The position numbers and the translations under genes were made by a program. Shown piece after piece: positions 5,557 through 16,428 of a stretch of 53,901 nucleotides of DNA. The stretch comes from a bacterium (GTDB lineage Bacteria; Electryoneota; RPQS01). The notes under the pieces were generated by a model. That model saw only the letters and a list, made by a program, of their open reading frames with translations. It did not search any database and had not been told where the DNA came from. Where the stretch lies: assembly GCA_018812265.1 (NCBI GenBank), contig JAHJDG010000164.1:1-53901 (forward strand), given 5' to 3'. Every line of letters starts with the position of its first letter. The first letter of the stretch is position 1.

Positions 5557-7347
5557 CTACCTCAACAGCACCATCTTCCGAATATCGTTGTAATCGCCCG
5601 CGCGCATTCGGCAGAAATAGATGCCCGAGCCGAGTGTGCTTGCGTCGAAAACCACCGACTGCCTTCCCGCCGGAAACGTGCGTTCGGTCAAAGTGGCAAT
5701 ATGTCTCCCGAGCAGGTCGCATACGTCAATCGTTACGAGTCCGGATTTGGGTACATCAAAGCGAATATACGTTCGTGAGTTGAAGGGATTCGGATAATTC
5801 TGTTCCAGTCGGGCGGTGATCGGTATCGGCATTGCGTCATCAGATACGGGCAGACAGTCTATGATGACCGCTTGGATCTGATAGAAGTACGCCGATGGAG
5901 TTGGTGTACCGTCGCCGTTCCATACGTAATAGTGAATGTCCGGCCAGGGCTCTGCGTTTTCACCCAATATCTGCGGAAAATGCTCCGGTTCCGTGTCGTT
6001 CGTAACCTCAAGCCATACCCAGAAGTCCTCGTACCACCACGGGTACAAGTCCGCCGGAAAAGTGACTTCCCTTTGCGACTCAGGACCCGTCTCGTAGGAA
6101 TGAACCACGATCACCGTGTCCAAGATTTCTTCCCCTGGACTCCCTCCCGCGTCCCGATACACGTGCCAGCGCATTTCGCGATCTCCTGTTTGTTCCGCGG
6201 AGAATCGCGCTCGAATTCTGTCCAAACGATAACAGAGTCCCACCACGGAATCCCGCACCGGCGTAAAATGAACTAACGGACCCGAACCCGGAGAGTAGTC
6301 AAGACTCCGTGACATCGTGCGATTATCGTAACCAATCAGAATATCCGATCCCGCCGGCCACACGACCACCGACTCGACCGTCGTCGTGTCGTTGGCGGGA
6401 TTTTGGTCCCCGCCATATCCCGATCGTGCTTGTATCGCATAGGTGCCGGAAATGGACAGGGCGAGCGCCGTGTCGCGGGAAATCATCTCTCCCGGCGGCA
6501 GGGAGAATACTCCGAAAAACGGTCTCCACGGATTTCCGATCACCCGCCACCACGTCTGAACGTCATGCAGTGTACCCACGCTCTCGTTTCGGAAGTAAGC
6601 GGTAATGCGGAAGGGACGGTTGACAAGATTCGGATAGCGAACTTGCAGACTGTAGCAGGAAATGTCGTTGACGGCGGGCGGCCAATACTCCAGGATCACG
6701 TTGTCGAAGCGTAGACCGGAATCCACGAGAGTATCGAGATTGCTCTGAAAGTAGAGCCGCAATTGGATCACGTACCCCATCAAGGGAGTGAAAAAAAAGG
6801 GTTCGAAGAAATCCTGCCACTGAGAGGGACAATCGCTGAATACATAGTCCGTTCCCATTGAATCACAGGTCGGATTGAACGCATTGCACCAGGTAACGCC
6901 GGAGTCACGGGAGACCTCGATTTTCCACCAGTCGCAATCAGGGTAGGTTTGCTGGCGCGGCAGATATCCGCTAATCATGAGATTCGCCGCCAACCAACCA
7001 CCGGAGATCGAGCGGAGATCAATCAAGGGCGAGGTCAAGGTGGTGGTAACGCCCGGAGGGTACAAGCCGGTTGTGGAGTCATTGCAAACGATGACAAGGG
7101 TTCCGTTGGTCGAGCTCGTGTCCTGCTCGATTCTCCAAAGTCCGTCACTCGGTATCCAGTCGGATAGATCACCGTTCTCCCAACCTTCCCAGTAAACGAT
7201 TTCGTCCAGCGTATGAAGAATACGTTGCGCGCGCGCCTCCGTTTTTCGGACAATGGAGTTGCTGATGGAGACGGGATGAACTTCTGCCGTCGAAACTGCC
7301 GCCACAGAAACCGCTATGGCCGCCAGAAATGCTGCAAGTCCTTTCAT
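5557..7347 (-). CDS. Secreted surface protein with type IX secretion sorting domain
   Basis: 596 aa. A signal peptide (residues 1-21) is followed by a region with Asp/Trp-rich beta segments like a jelly-roll adhesin module, and a CARDB-like stretch around 220-330. The C-terminal domain from about residue 514 begins with the hallmark QNYPNPFN and ends in a KMVLLR tail. That is the Por/type A sorting signal, which directs export through the outer membrane by the type IX system and attachment to the surface in FCB bacteria. The start is supported by a GGGGAG site just upstream. No catalytic motif was recognised. The gene is monocistronic: it ends at the 5458 hairpin and starts 158 bp from the end of the AmmeMemoRadiSam operon. 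The ligand or role is unknown. Confidence 0.88.
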   Translation of the reverse strand: MKGLAAFLAAIAVSVAAVSTAEVHPVSISNSIVRKTEARAQRILHTLDEIVYWEGWENGDLSDWIPSDGLWRIEQDTSSTNGTLVIVCNDSTTGLYPPGVTTTLTSPLIDLRSISGGWLAANLMISGYLPRQQTYPDCDWWKIEVSRDSGVTWCNAFNPTCDSMGTDYVFSDCPSQWQDFFEPFFFTPLMGYVIQLRLYFQSNLDTLVDSGLRFDNVILEYWPPAVNDISCYSLQVRYPNLVNRPFRITAYFRNESVGTLHDVQTWWRVIGNPWRPFFGVFSLPPGEMISRDTALALSISGTYAIQARSGYGGDQNPANDTTTVESVVVWPAGSDILIGYDNRTMSRSLDYSPGSGPLVHFTPVRDSVVGLCYRLDRIRARFSAEQTGDREMRWHVYRDAGGSPGEEILDTVIVVHSYETGPESQREVTFPADLYPWWYEDFWVWLEVTNDTEPEHFPQILGENAEPWPDIHYYVWNGDGTPTPSAYFYQIQAVIIDCLPVSDDAMPIPITARLEQNYPNPFNSRTYIRFDVPKSGLVTIDVCDLLGRHIATLTERTFPAGRQSVVFDASTLGSGIYFCRMRAGDYNDIRKMVLLR

Positions 7348-7505: not shown

Positions 7506-9677
7506 CTACACGAGTAATCCTCCGAAAATACACACGATAACCGCCAGCCAAACGGTCGCCGGGAGTCCGGCCAGTGGGATCCACAGCAGAGTTCCGAGCA
7601 GCGAACCGATTCCTCCGCCGATCAAATCGGCGGCATAGAGTCGCGAAACGCTTCGCGCCGCATCCTGTCCCGTTCCCAACATCGTATATACGAACACGGC
7701 CGCCACCAGAAATCCGGTGAGCCCGAGGAAAACTCCCGTCATTTCCAGCGAAGTCAGACGATCGGCATTCATCAGCCACGCCGCCACACAAGATGTGAGC
7801 GCCAGCGCCGCGACCAGAGCCAATCCCGTCGCTCGAAATCCACGCTGGCGCTGTTTATGGAATGAATCCGTTCGTCGCGCGATTCGCGCCATCGCTGATG
7901 CCCCCAGAGTGAGTCCGAGCATGAAAAGCGTGAGCAGGAGGCCGATATTCTGATAGAGTACTCCTGTCTGTATCTGGTAGCGGAAGATCAGCACGGTCTC
8001 GAGCAGCATTCCGCAGAAACCGGCGATCCCCGCCAGCATGACTAAGCGAATGGACGGCTTGGCGCGCGCGATTAGTGCGATGGCCGCCAGAATCATGGCG
8101 ATCAACCCCACCGCAATCCACTGCTGCTGCGCAAACGTCTTCCCCGCAACAAAACGCATCGTTAGAAGTCGGGGAGCGAACTTCGAGAGCCAGATGGTTG
8201 TGGCATAGGAGAAGCACACCGGTCGCGCATCCGTGTTGGCGGGAGCCTGTTCCTCGGACAGCCGCTCCCGGATTTCCGTAAACCGGTCGTTGGTGAGCAA
8301 GTACCTCAGATATTCCGGCGTGACCAGCCGGGTGGAAAGTCCGCGCTCAAGAAAGCGTTCTCTGAACATTTCCGGATCGTGCGGTAGCCTCACCTTTCCC
8401 GCCAGAATAACGTTGGTCGCGCCCGGCAGCACTATCACGTCCGAGAACGATCCTTTTAAGGCTTCGATGATGCTGGTATTGCGCAACGCCAGCGGTGCCG
8501 CCCAGAAGTTTTCCGCCGAACGCAACCGAAACGCGAACACTCCTCCATCCCGCAGATGAGATTGCACCAGCTCGAAGAACTCTTCCGTGTAATAGCGATT
8601 CGACTGAGCCGATGTCGGATCGGGCATACCGTTCAGAATCACGTCGTATTGCCCCATACTCTGTAGCGCGCGCCGCGGATCAGCCACCTGCACGTGAACT
8701 CCCCGCCGAGTGTCCATCCCGTGATTCGGGAGAAGCGGCAACAGCTCCGAGAGCAACACGCCGTTGATCTCGATGTAGTCTATACGTTGAGGCGCGTGCT
8801 GGAGCGCTTCGCGGATCGTTCCTTCCAGTCCGCTCCCGAGAATCAGTACCGTCAGCGGCTGAGAGTGGGCAAGCATCGCCGGATGAACGAATTCCTCGGC
8901 CGACGTACCCTCGGTCTCGAAAGACAGAGCGTCGTTTTCATAGACCGACACTTGCCTATTCTGTCTCGTCACGCTCACGCGGCCATAAGGCGTATCTTTC
9001 GTGAGCAGGAGATGCGGGTGATTCCAGCCCGTCGTTTGCCGGTCGAGTTCCCCCGAACGCAGCAGCGCCAACACCAGCAGGACTGAGACAAACAAGGATG
9101 AAACGAACAGCCATCGTCGCGAACGATCACGCCACAACAGTAGTAGCGCGGTCAGAGCGGCGAGAAGCGCGCACAAAAAACCGACCGTCAGATTCGGCAT
9201 CCCGATTCGCAAAAGCCCCGTGGATGCAATCCCGCCGACCACCGCTCCCGCGCTTTCGATGGCGTAGGCGGACGCGATCGTTTTGCCCTCGCGAGCGGAA
9301 AAAGCGGCCGCCCACGGGAACAGCAAACCCATCGGGATCGTTGCCGGCAATAGCGACAGAGCGATTCCCAGAAGTTGCAGAGGGAAAGGAAGATAAGCTC
9401 CGCGAACGCCTCCGAACCACACGCGCAGGCCGCGAACGAACACCACGTCCAGCGGCAAGATCACGGCAATCAGAATCAGCAGCAAATAAATCGGCGCCGC
9501 TGAGGAAATCTCAGAGCGCCGCGCAAGCGAGCTCCCCACTCCGGTTCCGAACAACCAGAATCCCAGAGCCAGAAGGTAGACCAGTTCGATTCCATAGGAG
9601 GCCACACTGAGCTCGCGCAGCAACACCACTTGCCCGAGCATGGAAAGCAAGCCCAGAGTGAAGAGAGGGATTGCCAT
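7506..9677 (-). CDS. Integral membrane protein with spermidine-synthase-like methyltransferase fold
   Basis: 723 aa. There are about seven TM helices in residues 1-205, a soluble aminopropyltransferase-like Rossmann domain (about 220-480), and about seven more TM helices to the end. The soluble domain shows the nucleotide-binding loop as LILGSGLEGT (SpeE proteins usually have GGGDGG), an acid-binding YIEIN, and NGMPDP followed by NRYYTEEFF. The catalytic Asp of true spermidine synthases (D in DSTDP) is Asn here, so polyamine synthesis is unlikely. The fold could act as a methyltransferase or aminopropyltransferase on an unknown membrane or periplasmic substrate. It starts 5 bp after the MEMO-AMMECR1 lipoprotein gene and so belongs to that operon as its third gene. 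Confidence 0.82.
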   Translation of the reverse strand: MAIPLFTLGLLSMLGQVVLLRELSVASYGIELVYLLALGFWLFGTGVGSSLARRSEISSAAPIYLLLILIAVILPLDVVFVRGLRVWFGGVRGAYLPFPLQLLGIALSLLPATIPMGLLFPWAAAFSAREGKTIASAYAIESAGAVVGGIASTGLLRIGMPNLTVGFLCALLAALTALLLLWRDRSRRWLFVSSLFVSVLLVLALLRSGELDRQTTGWNHPHLLLTKDTPYGRVSVTRQNRQVSVYENDALSFETEGTSAEEFVHPAMLAHSQPLTVLILGSGLEGTIREALQHAPQRIDYIEINGVLLSELLPLLPNHGMDTRRGVHVQVADPRRALQSMGQYDVILNGMPDPTSAQSNRYYTEEFFELVQSHLRDGGVFAFRLRSAENFWAAPLALRNTSIIEALKGSFSDVIVLPGATNVILAGKVRLPHDPEMFRERFLERGLSTRLVTPEYLRYLLTNDRFTEIRERLSEEQAPANTDARPVCFSYATTIWLSKFAPRLLTMRFVAGKTFAQQQWIAVGLIAMILAAIALIARAKPSIRLVMLAGIAGFCGMLLETVLIFRYQIQTGVLYQNIGLLLTLFMLGLTLGASAMARIARRTDSFHKQRQRGFRATGLALVAALALTSCVAAWLMNADRLTSLEMTGVFLGLTGFLVAAVFVYTMLGTGQDAARSVSRLYAADLIGGGIGSLLGTLLWIPLAGLPATVWLAVIVCIFGGLLV

Positions 9678-9682
9678 TCCCG

Positions 9683-11254
9683 TCAGTGATCTCGCAGGGA
9701 GTCGTCTTCGGAAAACACCACGGCCTGAAATACGAGAAACTGCGCGTCCCGCTTCCAGGCGTCGCCCGGCAAACCGGCTTTCTCGCAGAGGTGGCCGAGC
9801 ATTTCCTCCCGCGACCAGTTTTGTTCGGTCGCCACCTGCGGCAGATAGACCGCCGAACGTCCTTCCTTGCGAATCACTACGCCGTCCGTGCCTATGCGAA
9901 TCTTCCCGGCATCCGTGATCGGCTGCATCGGTGTCAGGGCGGAAATCTCGACCGTGATCTCGCTCATTTCGCTTGCGGTCACCGGTCGGAAACGGCGGTC
10001 TTCAAACGCGGCCGACAGCGCCATGCGGCCGACCACGCGATCCAGCGGCGTGTCCTCGGCCATGTGGCCGATGCAGCCGCGCAGCTCGCCGCGCTTTTTC
10101 AGAGTGACAAACGCGCCCTCCTTGATTCTCGCTCCCGCTCCGAATCCCCGTGGGAGAGGCAACGTCTGGCTCGTCAATTGCCACTCGATGGACTTCCGGG
10201 CCAGCGCCAGCAGCGCGCTCTTGTCGCTTGCCGTGAGCACGCTTGTGCTGCCGGCTTCGGGTTGCAGCTGCAAAGCGGAAGTATCCGCTCCGGCTTCGTC
10301 TTTCGTGAAGACGACCGCGCCGTATCCCACCACGCGGTTATAGTCTCCGACCAGCGCGTCTCCCGAATTCGCATAGCTGATGACCGTCCCGCGATTGGCT
10401 CCCCATTTCTTGGCCGCGATCATTGCCGTCAGAATCGGCCCGTCTCCGCAAGCGCACGTGAACAGCCCTTGAACTCGCTGGCTCATTAAAACCGGAATGG
10501 TGGCAAGCACCGCTTCCGCGTCGAGCAAGGCCACGGTCTTCAACATCTCTTTGTCCACTCTGCGCGCATCTTCATATTGCGGATAATGCGACAAGTCCGA
10601 ACTGGCTACGATCAACACGCGACGGTCCTGCAGAATAGTGGTCAGCGCTTCTGCCAGCCGTGTGCAGAGCTCTAAATCGGGACTCCCGATTACGATCGGC
10701 AGGATCTTCGCATCCGGGAAGAGCGTCTGCACAAAAGGAATCTCGACTTCGATGGAGTGTTCCTTGGCGTGCACGCGCGGATCGAAGACGAAGTCCCGGT
10801 CGGCTTCCAGCAGACGATCCGCCGCCTTTTCGTCAATCGCCGCGTCCCCCAGTGGCGTGCGGAAACTTCCCCGCGTGTAAACCGACACGCCGTGGAATCC
10901 GGAGATCGTGTGATTGGTGCCGAGGATCACGATGAGATCGTACGATTCTCCTTCCGTCTGACGGAAGGCGTCGGCGATAATCTGCCCGCAGTACACATAA
11001 CCCGCATGAGGCACAATGATCGCTAAGGGCTTGTCCACGCGCTTGGGCAGCGCCTCGGCCATGAACCGGTCAATCGCCAACCGCAGCGCCGTCGCATCCG
11101 ACGGATAAAACTGTCCCGCGACGGCCGGTTCCCGCACCGTCGCGCTCGTCTGGCGCGCCGAGCACCCGCTGCTCAGAAGAATGAGAACCGATACGATACA
11201 AAGCAATGTGCTTCTGGTCGGAGCAAATCTCCTCTGTGAGAAATCCTGAATCAT
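9683..11254 (-). CDS. amrB-amrA: AmmeMemoRadiSam system proteins B and A fused (MEMO1-AMMECR1), predicted lipoprotein
   Basis: 523 aa. The N-terminus is a lipoprotein signal with lipobox LSSGC (Cys31). Residues about 38-315 are a MEMO1/AmrB domain: AGQFYP, PHAGYVYCG, LGTNH, HSIEVEIPF and ASSDLSHY are all recognisable. Residues about 340-515 are an AMMECR1/AmrA domain with GCIGH and AFEDRRF. MEMO and AMMECR1 usually work with the radical SAM enzyme AmrS; the reaction of the bacterial system is not firmly established. The start ATG overlaps the stop of the upstream radical SAM gene (ATGA), so translation is coupled. The lipid anchor is unusual for these normally cytosolic proteins and suggests the system acts outside the cytoplasm. 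Family assignment is firm; location is predicted. Confidence 0.93.
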   Translation of the reverse strand: MIQDFSQRRFAPTRSTLLCIVSVLILLSSGCSARQTSATVREPAVAGQFYPSDATALRLAIDRFMAEALPKRVDKPLAIIVPHAGYVYCGQIIADAFRQTEGESYDLIVILGTNHTISGFHGVSVYTRGSFRTPLGDAAIDEKAADRLLEADRDFVFDPRVHAKEHSIEVEIPFVQTLFPDAKILPIVIGSPDLELCTRLAEALTTILQDRRVLIVASSDLSHYPQYEDARRVDKEMLKTVALLDAEAVLATIPVLMSQRVQGLFTCACGDGPILTAMIAAKKWGANRGTVISYANSGDALVGDYNRVVGYGAVVFTKDEAGADTSALQLQPEAGSTSVLTASDKSALLALARKSIEWQLTSQTLPLPRGFGAGARIKEGAFVTLKKRGELRGCIGHMAEDTPLDRVVGRMALSAAFEDRRFRPVTASEMSEITVEISALTPMQPITDAGKIRIGTDGVVIRKEGRSAVYLPQVATEQNWSREEMLGHLCEKAGLPGDAWKRDAQFLVFQAVVFSEDDSLRDH

Positions 11255-12501
11255 TGCCAGACTCCGGCTATCGGTTCATCACAATATTCGCATTGTCCGT
11301 TCTTCATGTGCATGGCGGCGATGAAGAATCCGCTGCGTTCGATCACGATCTTTCCACATCGGGGGCAATACGTGTGATTCCCCGCGTGTCCGGGCACGTT
11401 TCCCACGTATGGATAGTGCATTCCCTTGGCCAAAGCTACGCTACGCGCCCGCTCCAGCGTCTCGACCGGTGTGGGCGAGAGGTTGAGCAATTGGTAGTCG
11501 GGATGGAAGCGCGTGAAGTGCACCGGCACGTCCGGTCCGAGTTCACCGATCACCCAGTCGCACAGTTCGCCGATCATCACGTCCGAATCGTTCAGCGTCG
11601 GCACCACCAGATTCACGATTTCGAGGTGAGTGCCGCTCTTCGCCACCTGCCGGATGCTGCGCAGCACGGGCTTCAGCTCCGCCGAACACACCTTGCGGTA
11701 GAAATCCTCGCTGAATCCCTTGAGATCAATCTTGATCGCATCGAGCACCGAGCACATTTCCGCGAGCGGAGCTTCGTTCATGAATCCGCAACTGATGAGC
11801 ACGCTGCGAACGTTCTCCTCGCGGGCGGCGCGGGCGATGTCGGTCAGATACTCGACGAACACCGTCGGTTCGTTGTAGGTGAACGCGATCACCGGAGCGC
11901 GACGATCCACGACGCTGCGGACGATGCTCGCCGGCGGCGTGTAGGCCACGTCATAGTCTTCGGGCCGAATCTGCGAAATCTCCCAGTTCTGACAGAAGCG
12001 GCAATGCAGCGGACAGCCCGAAGTCGCCAGTGAGTACGCCTGAGAACCGGGCAGAAAGTGATAGAACGGCTTCTTCTCGATGGGATCCACGTGAACCGAA
12101 ATCGGTCGGCCATAGACCAGGCTGCGCAGTTCTCCGTTCACGTTCATGCGCGAACGGCATTTGCCGCGCTCGCGGTTGGCGATCATGCAGCTCTGCGCGC
12201 AGAGCAGACATTTTACCGCGAGTTCGTCATGACGATGTCCGGGATCGCTCGCGATCTCCTCGGGCGTATGACACTCCCGACAATGCCCTTCGGCGTGCAG
12301 CGTGGAAACCCAGTACCGCGCGAGCGGCGCCGCCGCCGCCAGCTCGCCGAGCTTATCGCGCGCGTACAGCTCGGACGAACAGCGAAAAACGCTCCGCAGC
12401 CACGGAGAGCTTGAAAACAGGGCATACGCACCGCACGCGGCGATGCCGATTTTCCCGGCTGAGACCAGAAATTCACGTCGTGAAAACTGCTGGATAGTCA
12501 T
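11251..12501 (-). CDS. amrS: AmmeMemoRadiSam radical SAM enzyme with Tat signal
   Basis: 416 aa. It starts with a twin-arginine signal (SRREFL then a hydrophobic stretch to about residue 35). The radical SAM cluster motif is C163-x3-C167-x2-C170 in GCPLHCRFCQNW. Ahead of it are Cys98, Cys101, Cys105 and Cys115, usual for the family. The C-terminus has two CxxC pairs (CPRC, CEYC), a probable metal knuckle. Between the family's N-terminal helix and Cys98 lies an extra segment with C74-R-E-C-H78, a CxxCH motif of the kind that binds heme c in exported proteins. The start has an AAGGA site. It is the first gene of the three-gene operon and overlaps the next start by 4 bp. Substrate unknown; a radical SAM protein carried by Tat is unusual but plausible because Tat moves folded proteins. 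Confidence 0.92.
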   Translation of the reverse strand: MTIQQFSRREFLVSAGKIGIAACGAYALFSSSPWLRSVFRCSSELYARDKLGELAAAAPLARYWVSTLHAEGHCRECHTPEEIASDPGHRHDELAVKCLLCAQSCMIANRERGKCRSRMNVNGELRSLVYGRPISVHVDPIEKKPFYHFLPGSQAYSLATSGCPLHCRFCQNWEISQIRPEDYDVAYTPPASIVRSVVDRRAPVIAFTYNEPTVFVEYLTDIARAAREENVRSVLISCGFMNEAPLAEMCSVLDAIKIDLKGFSEDFYRKVCSAELKPVLRSIRQVAKSGTHLEIVNLVVPTLNDSDVMIGELCDWVIGELGPDVPVHFTRFHPDYQLLNLSPTPVETLERARSVALAKGMHYPYVGNVPGHAGNHTYCPRCGKIVIERSGFFIAAMHMKNGQCEYCDEPIAGVWQ

Positions 12502-12983: not shown

Positions 12984-14330
12984 CTAAGAAATGCCGAACT
13001 GTTTCATTTTCTCGCGCAGCGTTTTACGATCAATTCCGAGGATTTTGGCGGCCGCACTCTTGTTGCCTTTCTGACCGACGACCACTCGCCGGATGTGCTC
13101 GGCTTCGACGTCGGCCAAGGTGCGGTCGAGACTGTAGGTGCGCGCCGCCGAATAGCGCATCAGCGAAGGCAAGTCCGCCACGTCCACCGTGTCGCCGTCG
13201 CTCATGATGATGACCCGGTGGATGATATTCTCCAATTCACGAACGTTGCCCGGCCAGTCGTAGGCCTTGAGAGCCTGCACCGCCCGCTCGCTGAATTGCG
13301 GAACGCGCTTCTCGAATTCTTTGGCGAATTTCCGGGCAAAGTACTGCACGAGCAGAAGCACGTCGTCCCCCCGCTCGCGCAGCGGCGGAACCGCCAGAGT
13401 GATGATATTCAACCGGAAATAGAGGTCCTCGCGGAACGCGCCCTTTTGCACGAGCGCCGCCAGATCCTTGTTGGTGGCGGCCAGAATCTTCACGTCCACG
13501 GTGGTGGCCCGGTTGGCTCCCACCATGCACACCTCATTATCCTGCAGAACGCGCAATAGTTTCACTTGCAGCGCCAGACTCAACTCGCTGATCTCATCGA
13601 AAAAAATGGAACCGCCCTCCGCCGTCTGAAAAAAACCCGCTCGTGATTCGGTGGCGCCCGTAAACGCGCCTTTCACGTGTCCGAACAACTCGCTTTCCAA
13701 AAGTCCCTCGGGAATGCCGCCGCAGTTGATCGGCACAAACGGCCCGGCCGCCCGCGAACTGCAATAGTGAATCGCCCGCGCCACCAGCTCCTTGCCGGTT
13801 CCGCTCTCTCCCGCGATCAGCACCGTGCTCTTCGTGGAAGCGGCCTTCTTCAACGTGCGAATCACCCTCATCATCACGTCCGAGATACCGATCAGACCGA
13901 ACTGCGGCAAATCGGCGATCTCCGATATGCGGTAGCGGGCCCGTCGCTGCCGCAGCTTCCGGAGAACGCGGCCAATCGCTTCCAGCAGCTCGTCATCGGT
14001 GAACGGCTTGGCCAAATACTCTTCCGCGCCCGTCTTCACGGCCGCCACCGCGTTCTGAACCGAAGCGTAGCCGGTAATCATCATCACTTCGGTGTCCCGG
14101 AAGTTGTCGCGGACGTGTCGAATCAAATCCAGACCGCTGGTGCCCGGCATCTTATGATCGGTAATCACGAGGTCTATCGGCGTGGCGGTTAAAACGTCAA
14201 GCGCGGAAGCCGCACTCGCGGCGGTGAACACTTGGTACCCTTGCCGGCTGAGGTTGCGATCAAGCACTTCCACCGTGTCGGGATTGTCGTCCACCACCAG
14301 GATCACTTCACGTTGCGTTGGTTCCGGCAT
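12984..14330 (-). CDS. Sigma-54-dependent response regulator (NtrC family)
   Basis: 448 aa. The receiver domain (about 8-125) has acidic pair VDDN, acceptor Asp58 in ITDHKMPG and Lys in AKPF. The AAA+ domain (about 150-385) has Walker A GESGTGKE, the sigma-54 contact loop GAFTGA, and Walker B FFDE. A C-terminal Fis-type helix-turn-helix (about 405-448) reads AAAKILGIDRKTLREK. It activates sigma-54 promoters when phosphorylated. I place the start at 14330 rather than the in-frame ATG at 14360: the 14330 ATG has GGGAG nine bases upstream and lies 1 bp past the kinase stop, while 14360 lies inside the kinase gene without a ribosome site. The partner is the kinase directly upstream. Targets are unknown. 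Confidence 0.95.
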   Translation of the reverse strand: MPEPTQREVILVVDDNPDTVEVLDRNLSRQGYQVFTAASAASALDVLTATPIDLVITDHKMPGTSGLDLIRHVRDNFRDTEVMMITGYASVQNAVAAVKTGAEEYLAKPFTDDELLEAIGRVLRKLRQRRARYRISEIADLPQFGLIGISDVMMRVIRTLKKAASTKSTVLIAGESGTGKELVARAIHYCSSRAAGPFVPINCGGIPEGLLESELFGHVKGAFTGATESRAGFFQTAEGGSIFFDEISELSLALQVKLLRVLQDNEVCMVGANRATTVDVKILAATNKDLAALVQKGAFREDLYFRLNIITLAVPPLRERGDDVLLLVQYFARKFAKEFEKRVPQFSERAVQALKAYDWPGNVRELENIIHRVIIMSDGDTVDVADLPSLMRYSAARTYSLDRTLADVEAEHIRRVVVGQKGNKSAAAKILGIDRKTLREKMKQFGIS

Positions 14331-14331
14331 G

Positions 14332-16104
14332 TCAGGATTCTCCCGGTTCGAGTGTTCCATTGGCGATCGGCAGTCCCACCTCGAAACGCGTCCCTTTCCC
14401 GACGGCGCTCGTGACCGAAATGGAACCGCCGTGCGCAGTCACGATTCCGTGAACGATCGAGAGCCCCAGCCCCGTGCCCTGTCCCACGTCCTTGGTCGTG
14501 AAAAACGGATCGAAAATCTGCCGCTTGGTCTCCTCGCTCATCCCCGCCCCCGTATCTTCGATCCCCAACACCACCGATGTCTCCCGCCGGCTGATCTCCA
14601 CCGTCAGCGTGCCGCCCTGCGGCATGGCCTGCAACGCGTTCACCACCAGATTCATGATCAGCTCGCTGATCTGTCCGGGATCGGCTACGATTCCGGGAAG
14701 TTCCTCCCCCAACCGGCGGACGATAATGATTCCTTCCTTCTTGCAGCGCGCCTCGAAAAACGAAAGCACCTCGCTGGCGACGTGGGAAAGATCCACCCGG
14801 CCCTTGCTGGGCGGCATCTGCCGTGAGAAGATCAACAGCTTCTGAACGATGTCCCGCCCGTGAAGGGCCGTCTTGATAATCTTGTCCAGGTCCTTCTCGA
14901 GTTGTGGGGTGTCTCCCAGACTCTTCTTGGCGAGCTGCGCAAATCCCAGAACGCCTCCCAGTGGCTCGTTGAGCTCATGCGCGACACCGGCCGCCAATTG
15001 CCCCAGCGTAGCCAGGCGGTCGGCGCGACGAACCTGAAGTTCCAACCGGATTTTCGTCTCTTCCGCCTCTTCCCGCTCGATGATCCCCGCCACTTGCCGC
15101 GCCACCTCGGCGATGAGCGCCGCTTCCTCTTTCAGGAACGGCCCCTCCGCATGCTCGGGCTTGCCCTCGATGTAAATGATTTCCAGCGTGCCTCGTTTCC
15201 GACCTTTGACGATGATGCTGGTCTGCTCCCGGTAGCGACCCGCCCGATACATCGAAGTCAGATAGGTGGCATGATCGAGGTCAATCCGCGCCGCGGCCAC
15301 GTCGGGATGCTGCAAGGCGGGCGGCAGAAGATCAATGATTCGCTGGAGTTTCTCCGCTCGCGTCCACTCCGGCTTGTCAACGATTTGGGCAATCTCATAC
15401 AGACAGCTTAACTCCTTGACCCGTTCCCCGAGCGCCCATTGAGCTCGACGATGAGCGCTGGCCAACCCTAAAATCTGTACCACGCCTTCATGGAGCGCGA
15501 TCTGTTCCACGGCGACCAGGCGGGGTTGCCCGCTGGCGATCAGAACGATTCCCCGATTGCGCTCCGTATAGAGGAATGGAAAAATCGCCAGAGACCGGAT
15601 ACTCTTGCCCGACCGCAACGTCGGGAGGCTCTCGGGTAGCAGGGCCGGCGGCAGGTGCCGGACGTCGTCCGTCCATAGACTTCCCCCAGCCGTCAAAAAG
15701 CCGGATGCCTTGCTTTGCGCGGGAGCTAATACGATACGACAGAGCTTTTCGAGGCCGCCCGGGAATGCAGAAGCGATTCCCTCGGGATCATCGGAGCCGT
15801 GAAGAAGCGCGAAGTCGTATGGATGTCGTGATTCCCGTGTCGCCCGCCACAGATAGCGGATGTCACCATCGTAATGTCCGATTTCGAGTTCATCGGCTCC
15901 GCTGAACTCCAAGAGGAGTCGGGAAACTTCCCTGAGAAATTCGATCCTCGACGGGCTGCCACTGGCTGAGCGTAAAATCCCCTGGGACAGTTCCAGAAAC
16001 TCCTCCGGTGAGCGAACCGCCAGCGAGGATTTCATCGCCAGCGGTTCATTCTGCCTCAGTGCCGACGGCAATCTACTCTGAATGTCGCCTGATTCTTCTG
16101 GCAT
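14332..16104 (-). CDS. Cytoplasmic sensor histidine kinase with GAF-like regions, partner of the NtrC-type regulator
   Basis: 590 aa from the ATG at 16104; a TTG seven codons earlier (16122) is also possible, and neither has a clear ribosome site. No TM segment is seen. The N-terminal 350 residues resemble weak GAF domains. HisKA has His376 in GVAHELNEPLGG. The ATPase has NLVVNALQAM, DTGAGM and GTGLGLSIVHG. This is the NtrB/HydH-like kinase class that pairs with sigma-54 regulators. It is followed after 1 bp by the regulator gene, so the two form a two-component operon. The signal is probably cytoplasmic. Confidence 0.92.
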   Translation of the reverse strand: MPEESGDIQSRLPSALRQNEPLAMKSSLAVRSPEEFLELSQGILRSASGSPSRIEFLREVSRLLLEFSGADELEIGHYDGDIRYLWRATRESRHPYDFALLHGSDDPEGIASAFPGGLEKLCRIVLAPAQSKASGFLTAGGSLWTDDVRHLPPALLPESLPTLRSGKSIRSLAIFPFLYTERNRGIVLIASGQPRLVAVEQIALHEGVVQILGLASAHRRAQWALGERVKELSCLYEIAQIVDKPEWTRAEKLQRIIDLLPPALQHPDVAAARIDLDHATYLTSMYRAGRYREQTSIIVKGRKRGTLEIIYIEGKPEHAEGPFLKEEAALIAEVARQVAGIIEREEAEETKIRLELQVRRADRLATLGQLAAGVAHELNEPLGGVLGFAQLAKKSLGDTPQLEKDLDKIIKTALHGRDIVQKLLIFSRQMPPSKGRVDLSHVASEVLSFFEARCKKEGIIIVRRLGEELPGIVADPGQISELIMNLVVNALQAMPQGGTLTVEISRRETSVVLGIEDTGAGMSEETKRQIFDPFFTTKDVGQGTGLGLSIVHGIVTAHGGSISVTSAVGKGTRFEVGLPIANGTLEPGES

Positions 16105-16428
16105 TTTTTTCTTATTAATCAATTAGATAATAGCGTGATCCGAAGTCGGATCGGCTGATCAAACCAAGTGGATGTCTGGCAAAGAATATACGGGTCGCTG
16201 TCAGGGAAAGCAACCAAAACATGCGGTTTGGTGGCCCTTTTCGCCCCAGTTGAAATCGCATCGCAAGACACTGTCGCCGGCCATTTCAAGGTGGTGGATT
16301 CGACTTGTTCCACCTCGACCTTTTCTTATCAATCATTGTCTTATTAAATATTTACAGGGGTCGGCATAATTGTTGGAGCTTGTTTTTGGGTATCAGGCTA
16401 TGTTTTTTAACAATTGCACTTCAGATTA

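Follow-up and report, generated by a model that had tools for sequence, protein, structure and literature searches.

Radical SAM enzymes, which depend on SAM and a strong reductant, are treated as cytoplasmic. For AmrS, MEMO and AMMECR1 of the AmmeMemoRadiSam system the chemistry and the substrate are unsolved, the cytosolic system included, and the MEMO and AMMECR1 families have human members. Three adjacent genes of an Electryoneota bacterium (assembly GCA_018812265.1, contig JAHJDG010000164.1, positions 1 to 53,901; this whole stretch of analysed DNA is called the window) raise the question of whether such a system can work on the far side of the inner membrane, and what a membrane protein with a spermidine-synthase-like domain, here named SPD, does in it. 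A literature search found no paper describing a periplasmic radical SAM enzyme, nothing on AMMECR1 with spermidine synthase and no paper on an exported AmmeMemoRadiSam variant; it did not cover Burroughs et al. 2019, the work likeliest to note such contexts, which PMC7159879 cites for 'Memo-Ammecr1 systems'. Here, we describe the three genes as a variant of the known AmmeMemoRadiSam system in which a CxxCH motif on AmrS is newly noticed, and we lean, with some reserve, towards an extracytoplasmic form of that system.

Results

The three genes are minus-strand open reading frames, at the positions given by an earlier sequence-only reading of the locus:

11251..12501, minus strand: amrS, AmmeMemoRadiSam radical SAM enzyme of the exported type, 416 aa (TIGR04337 363.6 bits, cut-off 220)
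9683..11254, minus strand: MEMO-AMMECR1 fusion, 523 aa (TIGR04336 255.4 bits, cut-off 26; TIGR04335 167.2 bits, cut-off 99)
7506..9677, minus strand: SPD, 723 aa, predicted 14-TM protein with a spermidine-synthase-like domain (PF01564 46.7 bits, cut-off 22.9; topology)

An ATGA overlap joins amrS and MEMO-AMMECR1, and SPD starts 5 bp past the MEMO-AMMECR1 stop, which confirms the compact layout of that reading. AmrS, MEMO and AMMECR1 each exceed the curated NCBIfam cut-off and are encoded by adjacent genes, which sets the locus among AmmeMemoRadiSam systems (TIGR04335/TIGR04336/TIGR04337). The radical-SAM cysteines and the MEMO and AMMECR1 motifs are kept, whereas a Tat signal, a lipoprotein signal, a CxxCH insert and the SPD partner gene set the window's cassette apart. 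The window's genome has a single copy of amrS. A search for a sigma-54 site before amrS found none, and a scan of the locus for sigma-70 promoters and terminators gave nothing exceeding chance. Just upstream of amrS and on the same strand lie an NtrC-type response regulator and a sensor kinase (window 12984-16122, minus strand). Just downstream of SPD (window 5557-7347, minus strand) is a gene whose product is secreted and bears a type IX secretion sorting tail (PF18962), and T9SS-type proteins adjoin SPD in two other loci (L057 and L059) as well.

AmrS-like genes were gathered from two sources, the window's phylum and a set of named genomes. The order amrS, MEMO-AMMECR1, SPD is shared by about 30 loci of several phyla, with representatives in KSB1, Deltaproteobacteria (Syntrophaceae, Smithella), Acidobacteria and Ignavibacteria, and in the closest clade it is found in nearly every locus on a sufficiently long contig; no fourth conserved neighbour gene was found around the cassette in that clade. 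Of 39 genomes from the window's phylum, 12 have an AmrS of the window's type, and the same 12 and no others have a close SPD (hypergeometric p 2.6e-10, kinship ignored), and in most of them the two genes are adjacent or separated by a contig end. An evenly drawn sample of 149 Acidobacteriota genomes contained 26 SPD genes at E 1e-60 or better. Twenty-two of these are near a Tat-type AmrS (21 have it within 4 kb by coordinates, and for G111 it was seen on inspection of the locus), three are on contigs separate from AmrS and one has no AmrS match, while signal-less ordinary AmrS copies are located elsewhere in the same genomes. AmrS and SPD distances are correlated (Mantel r 0.79, 0/5000 permutations). 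The earlier reading would have been refuted by homologues that are rarely adjacent, a test that it passes. Adjacency could still reflect nothing more than chance or phylogenetic inertia, a reading favoured by the shared ancestry of the cassette members and their occasional dispersal (G020 and G037 in the window's phylum), but the patchy co-occurrence in 12 of 12 genomes and the adjacency in 22 of 26 leave it scarcely tenable, even with counts that rest on draft genomes of two sampled phyla. Chance neighbourhood in particular is ruled out by these counts. We regard SPD as very probably a functional partner of AmrS and MEMO-AMMECR1.

Other arrangements occur around these genes. In a second Acidobacteriota class a Tat-type AmrS is followed directly by SPD, and several of the loci have an exported MEMO-AMMECR1 and DUF362 nearby. 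DUF362 proteins, of which some have a Tat-like N-terminus, adjoin Tat-type AmrS of Acidobacteriota at L194:8236-9348, L195:3795-4883, L202:3124-4119 and L187:4000-4890. Directly downstream of SPD, L187:8330-9665 and L188:8350-9696 (the latter by position and sequence similarity) encode 4Fe-4S dicluster and CCG domains (HdrC/HdrB-like), and a mannosylglycerate synthase gene lies between SPD and MEMO-AMMECR1 at L156:11946-13154.

The putative export signals and the functional motifs of the first two proteins are as follows:

12352..12501, minus strand: Tat signal region of AmrS (MTIQQFSRREFLVSAGKIGIAACGAYALF...), about residues 1-50 (RR invariant in 30/30 relatives)
12268..12282, minus strand: CxxCH c-heme attachment motif C74-R-E-C77-H78 (present in 27/36 of the clade, absent in 24 other AmrS)
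12229..12231, minus strand: His91, a conserved His after CxxCH that may be a second heme ligand (alignment)
11992..12015, minus strand: radical SAM [4Fe-4S] motif C163xxxC167xxC170 (invariant in 60/60 AmrS, exported and cytosolic)
11162..11254, minus strand: lipoprotein signal with lipobox LSSGC, Cys31 (sequence; the Cys31 column is Cys in 26/26 chosen relatives)
10313..11131, minus strand: MEMO domain, residues 42-314 (PF01875; MEMO1 metal-ligand positions kept in an alignment to human MEMO1)
9713..10207, minus strand: AMMECR1 domain, residues 350-514, LRGCIG motif kept (PF01871)

The AmrS N-terminus (MTIQQFSRREFLVSAGK...) has a twin-arginine motif, with SRREFL near the N-terminus, followed by a hydrophobic region, and TatC is encoded in the window's genome; these are the features of a Tat substrate. 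The Tat models TIGR01409 and PF10518 match 19 and 12 of 30 relatives, respectively, and neither matches the window's AmrS. In a tree of the radical-SAM core, 36 AmrS form one clade (SH-aLRT 100) and all carry the twin-arginine pair, 16 signal-less AmrS cluster apart, and eight further Tat-type AmrS make up a second clade. The fusion protein starts with a hydrophobic stretch that terminates in LSSGC, and a lipobox is seen by eye in about 27 of 39 readable MEMO partners, the rest having mostly other signal-like or anchor-like N-termini. Hence the Tat signal and the lipobox claimed by the sequence-only reading both hold up, the first by the pair in all 36 clade members (30/30 N-termini) rather than by a model match to the window protein itself, and its own proposed refutation, that the signals would be missing in relatives, failed. 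In the second Tat-type clade (L004, L005, L006, L009, L010 and L012) AmrS has no CxxCH at the insert position and is followed by a lipoprotein MEMO-AMMECR1, with a distant SPD homologue elsewhere in the genome.

SPD is predicted by hydropathy to have seven helices, a soluble domain and seven more helices:

9060..9671, minus strand: TM helices 1-7 (hydropathy and positive-inside analysis)
8178..9035, minus strand: soluble SpdSyn-like domain, about residues 215-500 (208-520 by hydropathy), predicted periplasmic
8616..8630, minus strand: GMPDP, residues 350-354, replacing the catalytic DxxDP (alignment)
7509..8117, minus strand: TM helices 8-14, which weakly repeat the N-terminal half (hhalign E 2e-4)

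The charged loops of the two halves independently put the soluble domain outside. A simple dynamic-programming topology predictor preferred 'out' in 29 of 32 homologues when TM helices were barred from the domain and was undecided when they were allowed inside it; the predictor was written for this analysis and calls too many TM helices in a TatC control. The proposal that the whole system sits at or outside the inner membrane is supported by the twin arginines, the lipobox and both SPD halves, and we consider this location likely, inferred as it is from signals recognized by motif and profile and from a predicted topology.

The CxxCH of AmrS was overlooked in the sequence-only reading. CxxCH is the signature of c-type heme attachment, and in the window's AmrS it is present as CRECH (residues 74-78) between the Tat signal and the radical-SAM core, with HRH shortly after. 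Within the clade, 27 of 36 members have CxxCH and a later conserved His, with freely variable X positions, and the other nine lack the entire insert; in the tree the motif is present early and was lost three times as a whole insert. It is absent at that position from all 24 aligned AmrS outside the clade. The window's genome encodes CcsA-type and ResB proteins, and AmrS meets the sequence criterion for a c-type cytochrome, namely CxxCH, an export signal and a genome that encodes heme-attachment proteins. It resembles c-type cytochromes in the motif and the downstream His but differs in being a radical SAM enzyme with a single inserted motif, no cytochrome domain and no heme shown. Of 31 named genomes, L082, L084, L102 and L105 have no clear Ccs/Ccm system, and none of these four has CxxCH. 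This agrees with heme attachment but is weak evidence, because nine other genomes without CxxCH have the system; that of L079 is not clearly typed. On balance we infer that AmrS rather likely carries a covalent c-type heme.

PF01564 matches SPD at residues 261-383, and solved spermidine synthases align to residues 243-462. Both the multi-TM character and the spermidine-synthase fold given by the earlier reading are borne out, as is the lack of the catalytic Asp: where solved spermidine synthases have the first Asp of a DxxD-type motif, the window's SPD has Gly350 and 23 of 25 linked homologues have G/A/S/V; the second Asp is Glu in 22/25, and the Asp of GGGDG is replaced in all 25. The residues that we take to be adenosine-binding acids, with roles for these and for the catalytic Asp assumed from spermidine synthase structures, are retained (Glu303 in 24/25, Asp333 in 25/25). 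In fold, judged by sequence, and in Glu303 and Asp333 SPD is like spermidine synthases and the TM-fused 'polyamine aminopropyltransferase' proteins (PF01564, NF002956, NF037959), but it lacks the GGGDG Asp and the first catalytic Asp and has its domain between two 7-TM halves. It falls far short of the spermidine synthase cut-offs (TIGR00417 59.6/249.55 bits, NF002956 122/472 bits) and below that of NF037959 (23.6/40 bits), and the window's genome has a separate ordinary spermidine synthase. Given that the transfer Asp is lost and the adenosine acids are kept, SPD is, judged from sequence, probably not an aminopropyltransferase and likely still binds SAM or a relative. The earlier suggestion of a synthase-like partner that modifies an envelope substrate therefore stands as to the partner; the modification is unproven, with residues that speak against aminopropyl transfer and for SAM or adenosine binding.

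SPD homologues are fused to electron-transfer domains of the NapH/NosR/RnfG type in two loci. On a Magnetococcales contig (L111) the homologue lies just upstream of AmrS and is fused to FMN_bind and a NapH/NosR-like Fer4_5, and in an Acidobacteriota locus (L196) it lies beside AmrS and is fused to Fer4_5. The adjoining AmrS lacks CxxCH in both; the window's SPD has no such domains and its AmrS has CxxCH instead. The AmrS heme and the SPD-fused NapH-like domains may be alternative electron routes, an inference from these arrangements.

Discussion

At the level of sequence, the analysis shows a conserved cassette, the putative signals, the heme motif, intact radical-SAM and MEMO site residues, and the loss of the aminopropyl-transfer Asp residues with retention of adenosine-site acids in SPD. 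The mechanism that we propose goes further. AmrS would fold and acquire its Fe-S cluster in the cytoplasm before Tat export, and would then receive a c-type heme on the CxxCH between signal and core. MEMO-AMMECR1 would be a lipoprotein on the same side, and the 14-TM SPD would present its SpdSyn-like domain to both. The radical-SAM cluster is inferred to get its electrons from the heme or, in other lineages, from the SPD-fused NapH/NosR-like domains. Least certain is a role of SPD in providing or retaining SAM in the periplasm, where SAM is normally absent; we hold this hypothesis only tentatively, and the complete picture of a radical SAM enzyme outside the cytoplasm, with covalent heme as the electron entry and SPD bringing or holding periplasmic SAM, is rather improbable as a whole.

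Outside the cytoplasm, neither a pool of SAM nor a low-potential reductant is known, which counts against an extracytoplasmic reading, as does the absence of a signal from the Magnetococcales AmrS beside SPD. Both would fit proteins held at the membrane with AmrS working on the cytoplasmic face, where SAM and reductant are found, if the Tat-like N-terminus were only an anchor and the orientation of SPD were reversed, which the crude topology prediction leaves room for. Yet the RR pair is kept throughout the clade, most MEMO partners are lipoproteins and, as a c-heme site, CxxCH would have no use in the cytoplasm, and we think this arrangement quite unlikely. The loss of CxxCH in Smithella-type relatives counts against a heme-bearing extracytoplasmic system, and the motif could instead be a zinc or structural site, together with the His, in a system that is exported and heme-free. 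It lies just before the CxxCxxxC...C cysteines common to all AmrS, and a single motif so small is easily misread. A structural site is harder to reconcile with C, C and H being fixed while the two X positions vary freely, with an insert that is present or absent as a whole, and with the lack of CxxCH in all four genomes without clear Ccs/Ccm; we keep it as a possible but weaker reading.

The extracytoplasmic reading also has to be weighed against a different role for SPD, that of an active enzyme which modifies an envelope lipid, a cofactor or the AmrS/MEMO product with the help of SAM or decarboxylated SAM, with the cassette acting as a membrane biosynthetic pathway. SpdSyn-fold proteins include methyltransferases, and the pocket of SPD is conserved though different (GMPEP, then S-G-Q-x-N-R-F-Y-T) and not decayed. 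On the other hand, the Asp positions for aminopropyl transfer are lost, the family cut-offs are far from met and a domain predicted to be periplasmic would itself still need SAM, which makes an active SPD doubtful in our view.

If the extracytoplasmic reading is true, AmrS is exported, bears a heme motif and has a constant partner in the membrane, which poses the question of how SAM and electrons reach that side of the membrane. The cassette is a compact genetic unit for the unsolved MEMO and AMMECR1 families, and it predicts a heme on AmrS, binding of SAM or 5'-deoxyadenosine by SPD and a membrane complex of the three proteins.
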